Below, piece after piece: positions 9,735 through 39,881 of a stretch of DNA of 64,000 bases; positions within the stretch are counted from its first letter, which is position 1, and each line of letters starts with the position of its first letter. A program made the translations under genes and the position numbers. Below the pieces are notes generated by a model. That model saw nothing but the letters and a program-made list of their open reading frames with translations. It did no database searches and was not told the DNA's origin. The stretch is taken from contig NZ_LPVV01000004.1 of NCBI RefSeq assembly GCF_002362255.1, positions 1 to 64,000 of the forward strand, in the 5' to 3' direction. This DNA is from Microbacterium sp. SZ1. GTDB lineage: Bacteria; Actinomycetota; Actinomycetes; Actinomycetales; Microbacteriaceae.

Positions 9735-9841
9735 GCTGGCACGGTACGCGCCTGGGCGGCGGCCGCCCAGACCCTTGACTCTCGCTTGGCTAACGTCTAG
9801 CCTGGCTAGCTAAATGCGGGTGTGAAAGCCGACGCATGCTC

Positions 9842-9914
9842 TGCAGGAGATCGCTCGCAACGAAGGACGCGCACGCGGCATCCGTCCTTCGTTACAAGAG
9901 ATCTCCTTTGTTAC
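9842..9914. repeat. Palindromic element, AGGAGATC...CGAAGGA family, copy 1
   Basis: About 73 bp: the left half has CTGCAGGAGATC then AACGAAGGACG; the right half mirrors it as CGTCCTTCGTT then GAGATCTCCTTTG. Two further copies of the same family are at 24050-24120 and 36177-36247. The inner arms (CGAAGGA / TCCTTCG) and outer arms (GGAGATC / GATCTCC) are conserved while the loop and inter-arm spacers vary. This is what a folded or mobile palindromic unit would show. Confidence 0.75.
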
Positions 9915-9923
9915 GGGTGGGCC

Positions 9924-10013
9924 CCCGCGGCGCGGGTGAGGCCCGCGGCGTGGGTGAGGCCCGCGGCGTGGGTGAGGGCCGCGGCGTGCGTGAGGCCCGC
10001 CGCGCGGGCGAGG
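9924..10013. repeat. 18-bp tandem repeat, five units
   Basis: Five contiguous 18-bp units with consensus CCCGCGGCGTGGGTGAGG, diverging at a few positions each. They fill the space between a palindromic element and the end of the TetR gene. The gap 9735-10043 contains only this array, the palindromic element before it and possibly a promoter for the opposite-strand gene at 9734. Confidence 0.85.
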
Positions 10014-24030: not shown

Positions 24031-24049
24031 GGCCGCGCCTCTCGGACTT

Positions 24050-24120
24050 CGCAGGAGATCTCTCAACGAAGGACGGATGCCGGCATCCTGTCCTTCGTTG
24101 CGTGAGATCTCCTTCGCAAC
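24050..24120. repeat. Palindromic element, AGGAGATC...CGAAGGA family, copy 2
   Basis: CGCAGGAGATCTC then AACGAAGGACG, mirrored by TGTCCTTCGTT then GAGATCTCCTTCGCAAC. It lies between deoD and the helicase gene. The outer arms of this copy match each other better than in the other two (9842-9914 and 36177-36247). Confidence 0.8.
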
Positions 24121-34095: not shown

Positions 34096-34129
34096 CGACG
34101 GTCTGACGACGGTCTGACGACGGTCTCAC
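34086..34129. repeat. 11-bp tandem repeat over a stop codon
   Basis: Four tandem units GACGGTCTGAC (the last GACGGTCTCAC). Because the unit contains TGA, the first unit supplies the stop codon of the glycosyltransferase gene and the others follow out of frame. The last unit reaches the 3' end of the convergent acyltransferase gene. Confidence 0.9.
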
Positions 34130-35196
34130 GAATGGGATCTCGGGCTGTCCGGCTCGCGGCGGCCTGACGAAGGCAGACGAAGGGATCGGACGCGGTCGAC
34201 GAGCAGCAGCGGGTCGAACAGCATCCCGAGCCCGGACCGCACGAGCAGTGCGTGCAGCGCGAGGCAGATCCCGACGACGGCGGCGGTGATCACGACGGGA
34301 CCGACCGCCTCGACGACCGGGTTCGGCCGCCACCCCGCGGCCCGGACGCCAGCGTCGATGAGCGCGAGCGGGATCATGTGCAGCACGTAGATCGGCAGGG
34401 TTCGTCGGCCGATCCAGCGCAGCGGACGGGCGAGCGGCGCCGCACTCCGGTCGACGAGGGCGCAGGCCGTCACCCCGAGCGCCACCGCCACGATCGCGAG
34501 CACCGGCCACACCCCCGGCCACTGTCGCATGCCCAGCACCCCGACGACCGCCGCCAGCGCCACGTACAGCGCCCCCAGCGCCAGCAGGCGCACAGGACCG
34601 GATGCCGAGGCGAACCGCTCGACCGCATCGCGAAGTCGCACCCCGGCGAGGAAGAAGAACAGGTTCTGCGCGACCTGCCAGAGGTTGCCGAGATCGGGGA
34701 TGAGTCCGGCCGCGGCCACCGCCGACACCGCGAAAGCCACCGTCAGCACCGCCGCGGTCGGCACGTCGCGGGTGAGCCGCGCCACGGCGAGGTAGGCGGC
34801 GAGCGCCAGTAGATACCAGAGGTTCGTCGGGCTGATGGTGAGCTGCGCGAGCAGCTCCCATCCGTTCGTCGCTCTCGCCGTGTCGAAGTCGGGGGTGAGC
34901 GCGAGCACGGCTGTCTGGATGAGCACCCAGATCACGTACACCGCGAGCAGCCGGCCCGCCCGGCGCCGCCACGACCCGTCGGCGGCCAGCACGGCCCGCC
35001 CCGCGAACATCCCGGAGATGAGGAAGAACAGCGGCATGCGCAGCGGCAGCAGCTGAGCGTTCACCGTCGCCCACACGTCGGTCACGGCGCCGGCCCCCGG
35101 CATACCCACCGCGTGCTTGGTGACGACGTGCCACAGCACGACGAGGATGATGCACACGCCCTTCGCGACGTCCGGCCAGCCGACCCGTGCGCTCAC
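34126..35196 (-). CDS. Acyltransferase-3-fold membrane protein of the van-like operon
   Basis: 356-aa membrane protein with about ten hydrophobic segments and the family signs WPDVAKGVCIILVVLWHVV at the N-terminus (the conserved His of acyltransferase 3 proteins) and PLFFLISGMFAGRAV. In VanT serine/alanine racemases of VanC/VanG types a membrane domain of this fold is fused to the racemase domain. Here it is a separate gene that overlaps the ligase gene by four bases (GTGA). It may act with the racemase as a split VanT, or modify cell-wall polymers. Confidence 0.75.
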   Translation of the reverse strand: MSARVGWPDVAKGVCIILVVLWHVVTKHAVGMPGAGAVTDVWATVNAQLLPLRMPLFFLISGMFAGRAVLAADGSWRRRAGRLLAVYVIWVLIQTAVLALTPDFDTARATNGWELLAQLTISPTNLWYLLALAAYLAVARLTRDVPTAAVLTVAFAVSAVAAAGLIPDLGNLWQVAQNLFFFLAGVRLRDAVERFASASGPVRLLALGALYVALAAVVGVLGMRQWPGVWPVLAIVAVALGVTACALVDRSAAPLARPLRWIGRRTLPIYVLHMIPLALIDAGVRAAGWRPNPVVEAVGPVVITAAVVGICLALHALLVRSGLGMLFDPLLLVDRVRSLRLPSSGRREPDSPRSHS

Positions 35197-36149
35197 CGCC
35201 CCGGCACCTCGGCGGCGCGCACGAGGCGCTCCACCAGGTCGGGGTAGGCCACGTCGGCGGCGGCGAACATGCGTGGGACCTGGGATGCCGCGGTGAGGCC
35301 TGGCATCGTGTTGACCTCGTTCAGCACCGGCCCGTCGGCGGTGAGGAAGAAGTCCATGCGCGCGACGCCCGCGCACCCGAGAGCGTCGAACATCGTCAGC
35401 GCCGCCCGCGTCAGACTCGTGTGCTCCGCGGTCGTGAGCGCAGCGGGCACCGTGAACCGCGCCGTGCCGTCGTACTTCGTCGCGGTGTCGAAGAGCCCCT
35501 CCGTCTCGATCTCGAGCGGCGGCGCCGCCCACCGCACACCGCCCGCCTCACGGATCACGGCGACGTCGATCTCGCGCCCCCGCACGACCTCCTCGACGAG
35601 CACCCTCCGGTCGTAGCGCGCCGCCTCGCCCAGCGCCGTCGCGAGCTCTCCCTCCTCGCGCACGAGCCCGACCCCGTAGCTCGATCCGCTCGACACGGGC
35701 TTCACCACGACGGGACCCTCGAACTCGGCATCCCCCAGCGCGGCGGCGTCGACCACTCGGCCGCGCGCGATCCGGAGACCGGCAGCCTGCGCGACCAGCT
35801 TCGTCGCCCATTTGTCCATGCCGATGGCCCCCGCGCGCAAGCCGGAGCCGACCACCCGCACGCCCGCGAGGGCGCACAGCGCGGCGAGCGCTCCGTCCTC
35901 GCCGAGCGGACCGTGCACCGCGGGGAACACCACGTCAGCGGCACCGAGCAGCGGCAGCGCGGCGGCCAGCGAGCCCGCGGCATCCGCCCCCTCCGCAAGC
36001 CCGGGCACCTGCCACACCCCCTCCGGCGAGATCGTCACCTCGGTCACCGCGTGCCCACGCGACCGCAGCGCCTCCGCGACCGCCGCCGCCGAGGCGAGCG
36101 ACACCGCGTGCTCGGCGTTCTGTCCCCCTCCGATCACGAGCACCCTCAT
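35193..36149 (-). CDS. D-Ala-D-X ligase (Ddl/Van family)
   Basis: 318-aa ATP-grasp ligase that joins D-Ala to a second residue for peptidoglycan precursors. Seen are MRVLVIGGGQNAEHAVSLAS, FPAVHGPLGEDGALAAL, VVVKPVSSGSSYGVGLV (ATP-grasp), the omega-loop region ATKYDGTARFTVPAAL and the metal-binding GVARMDFFLTADG with LNEVNTMPGLT. The KY in the omega loop occurs in D-Ala:D-Ala and VanC/G-type ligases, whereas VanA has a different loop, so the second substrate (D-Ala or D-Ser) cannot be fixed here. ATG 36149 overlaps the racemase stop by 4 bases. Confidence 0.85.
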   Translation of the reverse strand: MRVLVIGGGQNAEHAVSLASAAAVAEALRSRGHAVTEVTISPEGVWQVPGLAEGADAAGSLAAALPLLGAADVVFPAVHGPLGEDGALAALCALAGVRVVGSGLRAGAIGMDKWATKLVAQAAGLRIARGRVVDAAALGDAEFEGPVVVKPVSSGSSYGVGLVREEGELATALGEAARYDRRVLVEEVVRGREIDVAVIREAGGVRWAAPPLEIETEGLFDTATKYDGTARFTVPAALTTAEHTSLTRAALTMFDALGCAGVARMDFFLTADGPVLNEVNTMPGLTAASQVPRMFAAADVAYPDLVERLVRAAEVPGR

Positions 36150-37372
36150 GCGAGCCCCTCCTGCTCGCGCGCGCACTGCAGGAGATCACGCGTTTCGAAG
36201 GAGGAGAAGCCCGTATCCGTCCTTCGATACGCGAGATCTCCTGCAATACCGCGCCGCACCCGCGTCCCCACCCCCGTGATGATGGTGTGCGGGATCGTCC
36301 CCGCCCACCGCGCCCACTCCTGCACACTCGGCACGGCTCCGCCCTCCGGCCCGAACACCACCGCGGTCGCACCGCGCGGAACGCGACGATCACCCGTGTC
36401 GACGACGATCTGGTCCATCGACACCCGCCCGACGAGCGGACAGCGGATGCCGTCGATCGCGACCGCCGCACCAGGCGACAGCTCACGCGGGATGCCGTCG
36501 GCGTACCCGACCCCGATCACCGCGAGGTGCGTCCGCCGCTCCGTCACGAACGCGCCGCCGTACCCGACCGAGGTGCCCGCCGCGACGATGCTGCTGTGCA
36601 CGACGGATGCCGTGAGCCGCGCCGCTCCGTGCAGCTCGACGGTCGCCGACGGGTCGATGCCGACGAGCCCCGCACCCACGCGCACCAGGTCGAAGTGCGT
36701 GGCCGGATCGGTGAGCGCCCCTGAAGTCGCGGCGAGATGCACGAGCAGCGGCCCGAACCCTGCGCGCAGCACCGCGTCGCGACCGTGGCGGAGACGCAGC
36801 ACCGCCGCAGCATTCGCCGCGGGATCGGCCTCGTCGGCGCGCGGCAGATGCCCCATCACTCCCACGACCAGGATGCGGTCGCTCGCCGCCCGGGCCACGC
36901 GCAGCAGCTCGGCCCAGTCCGCGAGCGGCACCCCGCCGCGGGTCATGCCGGTGTCCAGGTGCAGATGCACGCTCAGCAGCGGTGCGCCCGGCACCGCATC
37001 CGCCACGAGCTGGCGGAGCTCGTCGACCGACCCGACGGCGATGTCGATCCGGTCGGCGGCGGCCTGCGCGGCATCCACTCCCGACGGGTTCAGCCACGCG
37101 AGGATCGGCGCCTCGATCCCGGCCGCGCGCAGAGCGCTGCCCTCTGCGGCATCCGTCACCCCCAGCCACTCGGCCCCTGCGGCGAGCGCGGCCCTCGCGA
37201 CGGTGAGCGCGCCCAGGCCGTAGCCGTCGGCCTTCACGACGGCCATGATGCGAGCGTCGGTCGAGGCGCGGATCCGCGCGACGTTCGCCGCGACCGCGGC
37301 GGGGATCGTCTCGAGCGTCGGGGCGTGCAGCCTCGACAGCGTCAGGCGCGCGACCGGCGCCGTGAGGGTCAT
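36146..37372 (-). CDS. Alanine (or serine) racemase, PLP fold type III
   Basis: 408-aa alanine racemase family enzyme. Catalytic Lys 47 in MAVVKADGYGLG binds PLP, and VGYADGIPRE carries the catalytic Tyr region. In VanT-type enzymes this activity supplies D-Ser; the housekeeping Alr makes D-Ala. The protein would end near GVGTRVRRGI, as in relatives, but about 30 more residues follow, encoded by a palindromic repeat inserted at 36177-36247. ATG at 37372; overlaps the carboxypeptidase and ligase genes by 4 bases each. Confidence 0.9.
   Translation of the reverse strand: MTLTAPVARLTLSRLHAPTLETIPAAVAANVARIRASTDARIMAVVKADGYGLGALTVARAALAAGAEWLGVTDAAEGSALRAAGIEAPILAWLNPSGVDAAQAAADRIDIAVGSVDELRQLVADAVPGAPLLSVHLHLDTGMTRGGVPLADWAELLRVARAASDRILVVGVMGHLPRADEADPAANAAAVLRLRHGRDAVLRAGFGPLLVHLAATSGALTDPATHFDLVRVGAGLVGIDPSATVELHGAARLTASVVHSSIVAAGTSVGYGGAFVTERRTHLAVIGVGYADGIPRELSPGAAVAIDGIRCPLVGRVSMDQIVVDTGDRRVPRGATAVVFGPEGGAVPSVQEWARWAGTIPHTIITGVGTRVRRGIAGDLAYRRTDTGFSSFETRDLLQCAREQEGLA
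36177..36247. repeat. Palindromic element copy 3, inside the racemase coding end
   Basis: TGCAGGAGATC ... TTCGAAGGAGG mirrored by CGTCCTTCGAT ... GAGATCTCCTGCA, same family as 9842-9914 and 24050-24120. All of its bases are within the racemase reading frame; the encoded peptide includes FETRDLLQC, and the copy at 9842-9914 encodes a very similar FVTRDLLC in one frame. Confidence 0.85.
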
Positions 37373-37971
37373 CGCTGCACCCGCGGGTCGGCCGTCGGGT
37401 CCGCGTACATGAGCGGGCAGCCGTTGGCGACGGCGCCCGGTCGCAGCTCGAAGTGCCAGCGCTCATTGGCGTAGATCTGGCAGAGGCCGAACTCGTCGCC
37501 GTGCTGCGACAGCCAGTCCTGCGCGGCCACAGGGCCAAGGTCGACGGCATCCCCCGACACGTGCTCGGAGTTCTCCGGCGTGGCCACCCAGCGCGCGGCC
37601 TCCTCCTCGGAGCCGTACTGCGCGACGGCATCCTCGCGCAGCTGCTGCTGGTACGCGGCCGACCGCCATCCGCTGTTGACGTGCATGGTCACGCCGTCGC
37701 GCTCGGCGGCCGTCGCCGCCGCGCGCACCGCCGTCAGCAGCTCGGCGTCGAGGTTCGACACGGCAGGCACATCGTCGAACACCGAGACGGCTCCCTCTTC
37801 GCGGATCAGTCCGTCGGCCTCGGTCACGGGTCCGGAGAGGAGCGGGGTGGATGCCGCGGCCAGCGACTGCTGACCGATCAGCACGGCCGACCCGGCGATC
37901 ACGGCGGCCAGCACCACGGCGCCGATCACCGTCACCAGCCGGCGCCGTCTGAGAGCGAGGGAAGTGTTCAT
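37369..37971 (-). CDS. M15B-family D,D-carboxypeptidase (VanY/VanXY-like), membrane anchored
   Basis: 200-aa zinc peptidase with an N-terminal membrane anchor (RLVTVIGAVVLAAVIAGSAV, residues about 12-31) and the M15B/M15C zinc signature SEHVSGDAVD with the downstream ERWHFEL. Such enzymes remove the terminal D-Ala from D-Ala-D-Ala-ending precursors; this is the role of VanY or VanXY in glycopeptide-type resistance. First gene of the leftward van-like operon; the next gene starts inside its stop (ATGA). Upstream lies the intergenic promoter region shared with the divergent two-component pair. Confidence 0.85.
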   Translation of the reverse strand: MNTSLALRRRRLVTVIGAVVLAAVIAGSAVLIGQQSLAAASTPLLSGPVTEADGLIREEGAVSVFDDVPAVSNLDAELLTAVRAAATAAERDGVTMHVNSGWRSAAYQQQLREDAVAQYGSEEEAARWVATPENSEHVSGDAVDLGPVAAQDWLSQHGDEFGLCQIYANERWHFELRPGAVANGCPLMYADPTADPRVQR

Positions 37972-38005
37972 GGCACTCAGTCAACGAGCGCCGCTGTTGC
38001 GAGGT

Positions 38006-38025
38006 CGTATGCGGATTTGCATACG
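38006..38025. promoter_or_regulatory. Inverted repeat in the van-like divergent promoter
   Basis: CGTATGC and GCATACG, separated by GGATTT, form a perfect 20-bp interrupted palindrome midway between the carboxypeptidase start (37971) and the regulator start (38075). Good candidate operator for the VanR-like regulator. Confidence 0.5.
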
Positions 38026-38074
38026 CTCGCGATATGTCGGGGTGCGTAAGCTCTCAGCACATGGGAGTCCTGTC

Positions 38075-38764
38075 GTGCGCGTGCTGATCGTCGAGGACGA
38101 GCCGTACCTCGCGGAGGCCGTGCGCGACGGACTCCGCCTCGAGGCGATCGCCGCCGACATCGCCGGGGACGGCGACACCGCGCTCGAACTGCTCGGCATC
38201 AACAGCTACGACCTCGCCGTGCTCGACCGCGACATCCCCGGCCCCTCCGGCGACGACGTGGCCCGCTCGATCGTGGCGTCGGGCAGCGGCATCCCCATCC
38301 TCATGCTCACGGCCGCCGACCGCCTCGACGACAAGGCGACCGGGTTCGAGATCGGCGCCGACGACTACCTCACCAAGCCGTTCGAGCTGCGCGAGCTCGT
38401 GCTGCGGCTGCGTGCCCTCGACAGGCGTCGACAGCGCGCGCGGCCGCCGGTGCTCGAGATCGCAGGTCTCCGGCTCGACCCTTTCCGCCGCGAGGTCTAT
38501 CGCGACGGACGCTACGTCGCCCTCACCCGCAAGCAGTTCGCCGTGCTCGAGGTGCTGGTCGATGCGGCCGGCGGAGTCGTCAGCGCCGAGGAGCTGCTCG
38601 AGCGCGCGTGGGACGAGAACGCCGACCCGTTCACGAACGCCGTGCGCATCACGGTGTCGTCGCTGCGCAAGCGCCTCGGCGAGCCGGGACTCATCGCCAC
38701 CGTGCCCGGAGTCGGGTACCGGATCGACGCGGAGGGACGCGCGGATGCCGGCGCCGAGGCGTAG
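38075..38764 (+). CDS. VanR-like response regulator (OmpR class)
   Basis: 229-aa receiver plus winged-helix regulator: acidic EDE at 7-9, phospho-Asp 51 in VLDRDIPGPSG, Lys in TKPFELRE, and a C-terminal DNA-binding domain (RKQFAVLEVLVDAAGG ... TVSSLRKRLG). GTG at 38075 gives the expected MRVLIVEDEP start; the open frame upstream is spurious. It overlaps the kinase gene by 20 bases and is divergent from the D-Ala-D-X ligase operon, which it probably controls. Confidence 0.88.
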   Translation: MRVLIVEDEPYLAEAVRDGLRLEAIAADIAGDGDTALELLGINSYDLAVLDRDIPGPSGDDVARSIVASGSGIPILMLTAADRLDDKATGFEIGADDYLTKPFELRELVLRLRALDRRRQRARPPVLEIAGLRLDPFRREVYRDGRYVALTRKQFAVLEVLVDAAGGVVSAEELLERAWDENADPFTNAVRITVSSLRKRLGEPGLIATVPGVGYRIDAEGRADAGAEA

Positions 38765-39881
38765 ACGGCGCGGCATCAGCGCCCGCTGGAAGCTGACGCT
38801 CAGCTACGCGGGAGTGGTCGTCGTGGCGGGTGTGCTGCTGCTGACGGCCGTGGCGCTGTGGCTGCTGCGATACGTGCCCGACACCAACCTCTTCACGCAG
38901 CTCGGTCAATGGGTGCCGAACCGCTCCGACCTCATCCGCGCGTTCATCCCCGCCGCGGTCGTGGTGATGCTCGTGCTGCTCGCGATCGGCATCGGCGGGG
39001 GCTGGCTGCTCGCCGGCCGGATGCTGGCGCCGCTCGACCGCATCGGCCGCGCCGCCGAGCTCGCCGCGCAGGGGTCGCTCTCGCACCGCGTCGATCTGGA
39101 GGGGCCGCGCGACGAGTTCCGCGACCTCGCCGACGTGTTCGACGCGATGCTCGAACAGCTCGAGGCGCACGTGGCCGAGCAGCAGCGGTTCGCGGCCAAC
39201 GCGTCGCACGAGCTGCGGACCCCGCTCGCCATCTCGCAGACCATGCTCGAGGTCGCGCGCGACGACCCGCATCGCGACGTCGACGGCCTCATCACCCGCC
39301 TGCAGGAGGTGAACACGCGCGCGATCGAGCTGACCGAAGCGCTGCTGCTGCTCAGTCGCGCTGAGCGCCGGGTGTTCACGCGCGAGCCGGTCGACCTGTC
39401 GCTGCTGGCCGAGGAGTCGGTCGAGACGCTGCTGCCGCTCGCCGAGCGCCGCGGCGTGACGATCGACGAGGGCGGCGACACCGCGAACGTCCTCGGCTCC
39501 CCCGCCCTGCTGCAGCAGCTGATCACGAACCTCGTGCACAACGCGATCGTGCACAACCTGCCGACCGACGGCACTGTCGTCGTGCGCACACACGTGCTGC
39601 CGGAGGCCGTCGCGCTGGTCGTCGAGAACACTGGCGGGGTGCTCGCGCCGCACGTCGTCTCGACCTTGGCCGAGCCGTTCCAGCGCGGGTCGGAGCGCAC
39701 GCGAGGCGAGGCCCGTTCCGGGGATCACGTCGGAGTCGGACTGGGGCTCGCGATCGTGCACCGCATCGCCCAGGCCCACGACGGGAGCCTCGTGCTGACC
39801 CCGCGCCAGGGCGGCGGGTTGAACGTGACGGTGTGGCTGCCGCATCCGTATCCTCCGTCGCGGCCGGCACCCGGCGCCTGA
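38745..39881 (+). CDS. VanS-like sensor histidine kinase
   Basis: 378-aa kinase: two membrane segments (about residues 18-40 and 65-90) around a short extracytoplasmic loop, HAMP region ending LADVFDAMLEQLEAHV, HisKA with ASHELRTPLAIS (His 155), and HATPase with NLVHNAIVHN and GVGLGLAIVHRI. The loop is too short for a large sensor domain, as in VanS proteins that sense cell-wall stress or antibiotic. Start ATG at 38745 inside the regulator gene. Confidence 0.88.
   Translation: MPAPRRRRRGISARWKLTLSYAGVVVVAGVLLLTAVALWLLRYVPDTNLFTQLGQWVPNRSDLIRAFIPAAVVVMLVLLAIGIGGGWLLAGRMLAPLDRIGRAAELAAQGSLSHRVDLEGPRDEFRDLADVFDAMLEQLEAHVAEQQRFAANASHELRTPLAISQTMLEVARDDPHRDVDGLITRLQEVNTRAIELTEALLLLSRAERRVFTREPVDLSLLAEESVETLLPLAERRGVTIDEGGDTANVLGSPALLQQLITNLVHNAIVHNLPTDGTVVVRTHVLPEAVALVVENTGGVLAPHVVSTLAEPFQRGSERTRGEARSGDHVGVGLGLAIVHRIAQAHDGSLVLTPRQGGGLNVTVWLPHPYPPSRPAPGA

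Follow-up and report, generated by a model that had tools for sequence, protein, structure and literature searches.

Why does a palindromic repeat run through the reading frame of an alanine racemase gene, at the very point where that gene overlaps its neighbor? The joint lies in Microbacterium sp. SZ1 (genome G000; other G numbers denote genomes of relatives), within a window of 64,000 nucleotides, the whole stretch of DNA that was analyzed. Its features are:

34126-35196, minus strand: membrane acyltransferase gene, after the ligase gene (Pfam PF01757)
35193-36149, minus strand: D-alanine--D-alanine ligase family gene (Pfam PF07478 and PF01820)
36146-36149, minus strand: ATGA, the racemase stop and ligase start overlapping (from the sequence)
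36149-36175, minus strand: 27-nt segment after the element, with a Shine-Dalgarno (SD)-like AGGAGG at 36157-36162 before the ligase start
36176-36246: 71-bp palindrome inside the racemase ORF, with 27 potential arm pairs and a 15-nt loop (covariance model, 80 bits)
36146-37372, minus strand: alanine racemase (alr) ORF of 408 aa, running through the palindrome (Pfam PF01168 and PF00842)
37369-37971, minus strand: VanY-type carboxypeptidase gene, adjoining the racemase gene (Pfam PF02557)

The racemase frame stays open across the palindrome, and its C-terminal end reads ...GVGTRVRRGIA followed by GDLAYRRTDTGFSSFETRDLLQCAREQEGLA and the stop. The tail adds 31 residues after ...RRGIA, about 22 of them encoded by the 71-bp element, which bears out the proposal of a preliminary description that the palindrome lies inside the racemase frame and supplies most of the tail. 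Because the Pfam Ala_racemase_C match stops at residue 374, the palindrome falls outside the racemase domain. We favor, at a probability of roughly two in three, a reading in which the repeat entered the racemase–ligase joint, selection kept the frame and the overlap, the palindrome is what is recognized or spread, and the peptide is a by-product.

Among NCBIfam models, the racemase scores above the cut-off of TIGR00492 and under those of the VanT models; the ligase is above cut-off for both NF002528 and TIGR01205. The genes at 34126-39881 form a glycopeptide-resistance-like cluster of a VanR-O/VanS-O-like pair, a VanY-type carboxypeptidase, the racemase, the acyltransferase and the D-Ala ligase type gene. 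The two-component pair is divergent to the cluster, and its best NCBIfam models, VanR-O and VanS-O, are both matched below their cut-offs. The separate racemase and membrane acyltransferase genes are perhaps a two-part VanT-like arrangement.

The repeat family and its spread

A covariance model was trained on 15 rows, 12 copies from G000 and three orthologous racemase copies. The 80 bits of the window's racemase copy correspond to E 1.4e-16 on the whole genome, and because this copy is among the training rows, the independent evidence for a repeat family comes from blastn, in which the racemase stretch found its best other genome position at E 2.6e-12. The model gives 28 matches in G000 (both strands counted, E <=0.1), with at least 13 positions among the matches listed. 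A chance palindrome was set aside, since the repeat family is found genome-wide. We also set aside a known Rfam family, as Rfam 15 at gathering score returned no match across the 64-kb window. Among the papers listed from open-licence PMC text, none came up as describing the family.

Two further copies in the window occupy spacers:

9841-9911, intergenic: spacer copy (covariance model), with a copy also at the matching G180 position
24049-24117, intergenic: spacer copy of 69 bp (covariance model), whose G180 counterpart is an unrelated palindrome with 26-bp perfect arms

All three window copies had been described as readable as similar peptides. This holds for the 9.84-kb copy, which gives SFVTRDLLC on the plus strand, but not for the 24.05-kb copy end to end, because a 2-bp deletion (hence 69 bp) breaks its frame part way. 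A short tandem GC-rich repeat at 9915-10005 of the window adjoins the 9.84-kb copy and is missing at the matching G180 position.

The family extends well beyond one genome. All 12 genomes of a first set match the covariance model at E <=0.1, G128 by a single match near the limit. Across Microbacterium, 145 of 295 genomes match at E <=1e-4 and 150 are without a match; in a sample of the bacterial family, 18 of 249 genomes match at 1e-5, from 8 of 85 genera, four of the 18 belonging to the window's own genus. We read the genomic context of 139 copies from 14 genomes, a sample rather than all copies, with gene calls from a purpose-made ORF caller. Copy length is 71 bp in 118 of the 139 and 69, 70 or 72 bp in the remainder. 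Arm identity among the 71-bp copies (n = 118) is 0.789 within genomes vs 0.714 between them (0 of 1000 permutations), and the element has short terminal inverted repeats, as in MITEs. Local clusters also occur: six copies stand in a row at a spacing of about 100-107 bp in G282 (L189:1931-2518), and three lie inside about 0.5 kb in G000 (C4:111764-112295).

Filled and empty gene joints

For the racemase we compared 30 loci of the genus, the best 30 of 288 matching genomes. The repeat occupies the joint in four (G000, G180, G287 and G196), always in frame. In all 26 repeat-free loci of the 30, the tail is missing: the racemase ends a few residues past its domain, with the stop codon and the ligase start sharing bases (ATGA or GTGA). 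Racemases at the named loci L059-L098 except L063 also end just past the domain, in 39 of 39 cases, though some Actinomadura loci have no ligase start immediately behind the racemase end. The tail of L058 (Microbacterium sp. 1.5R) is identical to that of G287, and the tail of L063 (sp. GCS4) to that of G196. In the racemase tree the four carriers form one group, requiring one change, with weak support (80/41). The racemase tails of the carriers measure 93, 144, 165 and 93 nt, every one open and a multiple of three; the stretches after the element measure 27, 78, 99 and 27 nt, and every carrier retains the overlap with the ligase start. The extra tail length of G287 contains short in-frame repeats (RGQAA). 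Most simply, one copy of the dispersed Microbacterium family would have inserted at the racemase–ligase joint once, in the common ancestor of the four species.

The flanks of the element hint at how it entered. The 21 nt before the ligase start (36149-36169 in G000) and the end of the racemase where the element begins (36242-36262) are alike at 12 of 21 positions, a likeness reached by one of 231 SD-bearing starts. The corresponding values of 15/21 in G180 and 13/21 in G196 are each reached by none of the 231, and the 12/21 of G287 is weaker, being reached by five. Such a likeness of about 21 nt on both sides of the element is found at alr only. The likeness suggests, at this one site, that insertion duplicated the racemase/ligase joint together with its ribosome-binding site; the copied joint would then have become the stretch before the ligase start.

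Other genes are read through as well. Among the 139 sampled copies, 10 overlap a predicted ORF. Nine of these lie at the 3' end of the ORF or close to it, and a doubtful tenth lies at a 5' end; four of the 10 are orthologous. The 73 copies read in seven further complete genomes and a portion of G143 include five that overlap predicted ORFs. Of these ORFs, three (the rimI upstream of tsaD in G188 and in G034, plus a G188 membrane-protein gene) cross the element and terminate at an ATGA shared with the following gene; the other two (an ABC ATPase in G258 and a hydrolase in G034) stop within the element. An ORF at L014 with an apparent copy was not counted as captured, its coding score being weak and Pfam giving no match.

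A scan of the rimI–tsaD joint covered 31 loci, namely L305 and 30 taken from 192 matching genomes. The rimI tail motif was resolved in 25, and of the other six, L326 was read directly. The element is present in five of the 31 (G188, G076, G092, G181 and G034), with the overlap kept in all five. The last residues of the carriers (..EATA, ..EASA) resemble some repeat-free rimI ends. Carriers are scattered over the rimI tree, where four changes are needed and at least two are forced; 85 of 500 shuffles do equally well. Among the resolved repeat-free tails, 17 of 21 are 18-26 aa long and two reach 66 aa. Since 8 of the 25 resolved loci are without the -1 overlap, rimI coupling is not universal. 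In G181 (L336) the RimI tail is 139 residues long and contains, next to the element, short in-frame repeats of the NPAGTVAADR type. The constant feature across the read-through cases is the retained overlap with the next gene. The preliminary reading of the repeat as a captured racemase C-terminus proved right, because no repeat-free relative in the comparison had the tail and the element does occur in further genes, namely rimI in five genomes and the membrane-protein gene of G188.

Is the repeat, then, a non-autonomous, MITE-like mobile element whose transposase lies elsewhere, its in-gene copies being the survivors that kept the frame? Like the MITEs Correia, RUP, BOX and SPRITE, it is a short inverted-repeat element without a gene of its own, and the higher arm identity within genomes (0.789 vs 0.714) delineates genome-specific subfamilies. 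Its patchy presence at rimI and the sign of a duplicated joint at alr fit as well. Unlike in those MITEs, however, a target duplication is suggested at one site only, and a near-fixed length is odd for decaying insertions. The compared positions of G000 and G180, where aligned blocks are mostly ~90% alike, also differ over the whole spacer rather than by a clean insertion. Copies at 9.84 kb and C4:220143 are common to both genomes; at the G180 copy at 1,682,206, G000 has an unrelated palindrome with 19-bp perfect arms, and at C4:207501 the G180 spacer is different and carries 16-bp arms far apart. We regard this mobile-element account as tenable, if short of even odds.

The search for a mobilizing enzyme bears on the same question. 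REP palindromes are dispersed, extragenic sequences at gene 3' ends, and in this the repeat, with 128 of 139 copies in spacers, resembles the REP palindromes that accompany RAYT. It differs from them in its four motifs of fixed spacing, its origin-side distribution and the lack of a Y1 transposase. Y1 (RAYT) transposase, PF01797, was found neither in the window's own genome (0/1) nor in 18 others (12 copy-rich and six without a match), and controls were positive in 5 of 14. A REP with RAYT was set aside, the Y1 transposase being missing from all 19 genomes tested, and the same result counts against a MITE-like element.

Peptide, palindrome and hairpin

We compared codon positions across the four racemases. 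"Third positions" hold 0.64-0.84 of the differences in the enzyme (last 300 codons, six pairs) and 0.30-0.47 in the 22 element codons (six pairs), a contrast with Fisher p of 0.002-0.045 in which the pairs are not independent and the tail is only 22 codons. In every pair the tail diverges somewhat more slowly than the third positions of the enzyme. Invariant columns among the racemase copies number 37 of 54 in the arms vs 3 of 15 in the loop. Arm pairing in the four copies is 84.3%, vs 34-47% for slid partners, and three pairs have changed on both sides; with four sequences, 121 of 500 shuffles match the 84.3%, so pairing shows no excess over shuffles. What has been kept is therefore the open frame and the arms, with no sign of amino-acid constraint on the peptide.

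The reading phase points the same way. Phase 1 is used in alr and phase 2 in the rimI of G034; the other four rimI carriers and the membrane-protein pair of G188 use phase 0. A selected peptide was set aside, as three phases are used and tail differences are spread over codon positions.

The preliminary description had likened the repeat to the peptide elements of Rickettsia. There, palindromic elements reportedly encode a conserved peptide, and nearly half of the 44 copies of R. conorii lie in ORFs (PMC10969869). What stands of the comparison is in-frame capture: the Microbacterium repeat too is palindromic and able to sit in frame in protein-coding genes, as in alr, rimI and one further gene. 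The rest does not carry over. The Rickettsia elements are about 150 bp long, whereas the repeat here is 71 bp, mostly intergenic (10 of 139 copies in ORFs), used in three phases and free of third-position bias or any other sign of a conserved peptide; its read-through copies also lie at 3' gene ends that the following gene overlaps. A Rickettsia-type element could owe its place in proteins either to a selected peptide or to a conserved frame that lets it enter them. Open frames are common in the family: of 62 non-racemase copies, 37 are open in the frame that the racemase uses and 39-55 in each of the remaining five. We counted this on the side of a peptide element, but the three phases, the tail differences over all codon positions and the 128 of 139 intergenic copies make that explanation very improbable and, we conclude, unneeded. 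Under the reading we favor, the added peptide would be a tolerated by-product outside the folded enzyme. Selection would keep the frame and the overlap so that ribosomes ending the racemase go on to start the ligase, as the overlap and the SD-like sequence suggest; read-through of the repeat apparently keeps the translation of two overlapping genes linked, rather than adding something useful to the protein.

The positions of the copies raise the possibility of a role in RNA. The 139 copies comprise 57 in convergent spacers, 66 in co-directional and 5 in divergent ones, 10 overlapping ORFs and 1 unplaced; of the co-directional copies, 48 are closer to the stop of the upstream gene. Against a spacer baseline from one 400-kb sample of G180, in which 58 of 206 spacers are divergent, the copies show a shortage in divergent spacers (p ~1e-12) and an excess in convergent ones (p ~1e-13), orthologous copies among them not being independent. 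This arrangement would suit a bidirectional 3'-end RNA hairpin, a terminator or message stabilizer, with the alr copy forming a hairpin within one message. So would the two G000/G180 positions at which the repeat in one genome faces an unrelated palindrome in the other, its perfect arms measuring 26 or 19 bp. Yet TTTT occurs within 15 nt of either end in none of the 139 copies, and an ordinary intrinsic terminator was set aside for want of a U-run next to the hairpin. A terminator within the coupled operon would moreover cut off the ligase, and a hairpin neither needs outer motifs to match inner ones nor explains the origin-side distribution. We consider the hairpin explanation possible but doubtful.

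Motifs, origin-side distribution and meaning

Each element carries four NNAGGAG motifs, two per arm and 19 bp apart in the arm. The bases before AGGAG vary by genome: mostly TGC and CGA in G000, CGA in G180, TGA in G186, and GGG in G188 and G143. Outer and inner motifs share the base before AGGA at a frequency of 0.76 in the same copy, 0.68 in different copies of one genome and 0.35 between genomes. The within-genome agreement (0.68 vs 0.35) was reached by none of 1000 permutations, related genomes not being independent. Because arm pairing explains left-right agreement alone, the outer-inner agreement is left over. In our reading, either the copies of a genome are recognized by a single putative trans-acting protein or they descend from a master copy specific to that genome. 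A protein recognizing the element is likely. Recognition of the four motifs by such a putative trans-acting protein would cause the palindrome to be kept or spread, and the protein would either move the element or use it as a chromosomal site.

Copies are also unevenly placed along the chromosome. We located dnaA in nine complete genomes (G180, G282, G186, G250, G166, G188, G258, G034 and G114; lengths rounded) and merged copies within 3 kb into one locus; G180 and G282 contributed best-scoring copies only, and the other seven genomes are complete at E <=1e-5. On this basis, the origin half holds 76 of the 83 loci, 63 of which are in the quarter nearest the origin, and the last 40% of the chromosome holds none. 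For the seven genomes with complete lists the corresponding counts, out of 60 loci, are 54, 44 and 0. In G000, the contigs C2 and C4, which end in two parts of dnaA, hold 11 of the 13 listed copies.

Sampling of G180 gave a similar picture together with a control. The 400 kb around its origin contain eight strong matches and one weak match; the 400 kb at the far end contain just two, with E about 0.04. Counts of other intergenic palindromes in G180 are 31 for the origin side vs 19 for the far end, in 41 vs 52 kb of spacer. Four of the seven strong origin palindromes are this element, and without it the strong ones number 3 vs 1; the control therefore speaks less for a general origin bias. A weaker general bias of palindromes to the origin exists beside the element's own. 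The origin sample (G180:1720000-2119999, L225-L244) also contains small palindrome families, with two copies of the TCGAATCGCTTGACT type, three of the CCGAGACCCACC type and four of the AGAGGGGCGGATGC type; none of these types occurs in the G180 far-end sample.

Might the repeat be a binding cassette for a putative protein that organizes the origin half of the chromosome? The parS sites and the ram sites of RacA are palindromic and concentrated near oriC, and the repeat resembles these origin-domain site families in both respects. It differs from them in being much longer and composite. Such a cassette is favored by the fixed spacing and concerted change of the four motifs, by the placement of 76 of 83 loci on the origin side with 0 in the last 40% (54/60 and 0/60 in the complete-list genomes), and by the nine matches at the G180 origin, where the far end has none below E 0.04. 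But the loci of related species are not independent, other G180 intergenic palindromes are also somewhat commoner near the origin (31 vs 19), and 150 of 295 genomes of the genus have no match at E 1e-4. We judge a binding cassette unlikely. A fuller version, more speculative still, would make the element a four-site cassette for a putative, fast-changing DNA-binding protein of the Microbacteriaceae that marks the origin half; element and protein would co-evolve, and copies would be installed at gene ends, even at coupled operon joints, with the frame kept open.

Our best reading remains a self-spreading or recognized palindrome that coupled gene joints tolerate. Three things seem new: the repeat family as such, its recurring read-through at overlapping joints, and its concerted motifs with their origin-side bias. 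The empty and filled sites in related species amount to a natural experiment in which a repeat entered a coupled operon without breaking it, and they illustrate a route to a C-terminal protein tail without visible selection on the peptide. If one protein underlies both the concerted motifs and the origin-side distribution, the repeat would be a pointer to an undescribed chromosome-scale recognition system in Actinobacteria.
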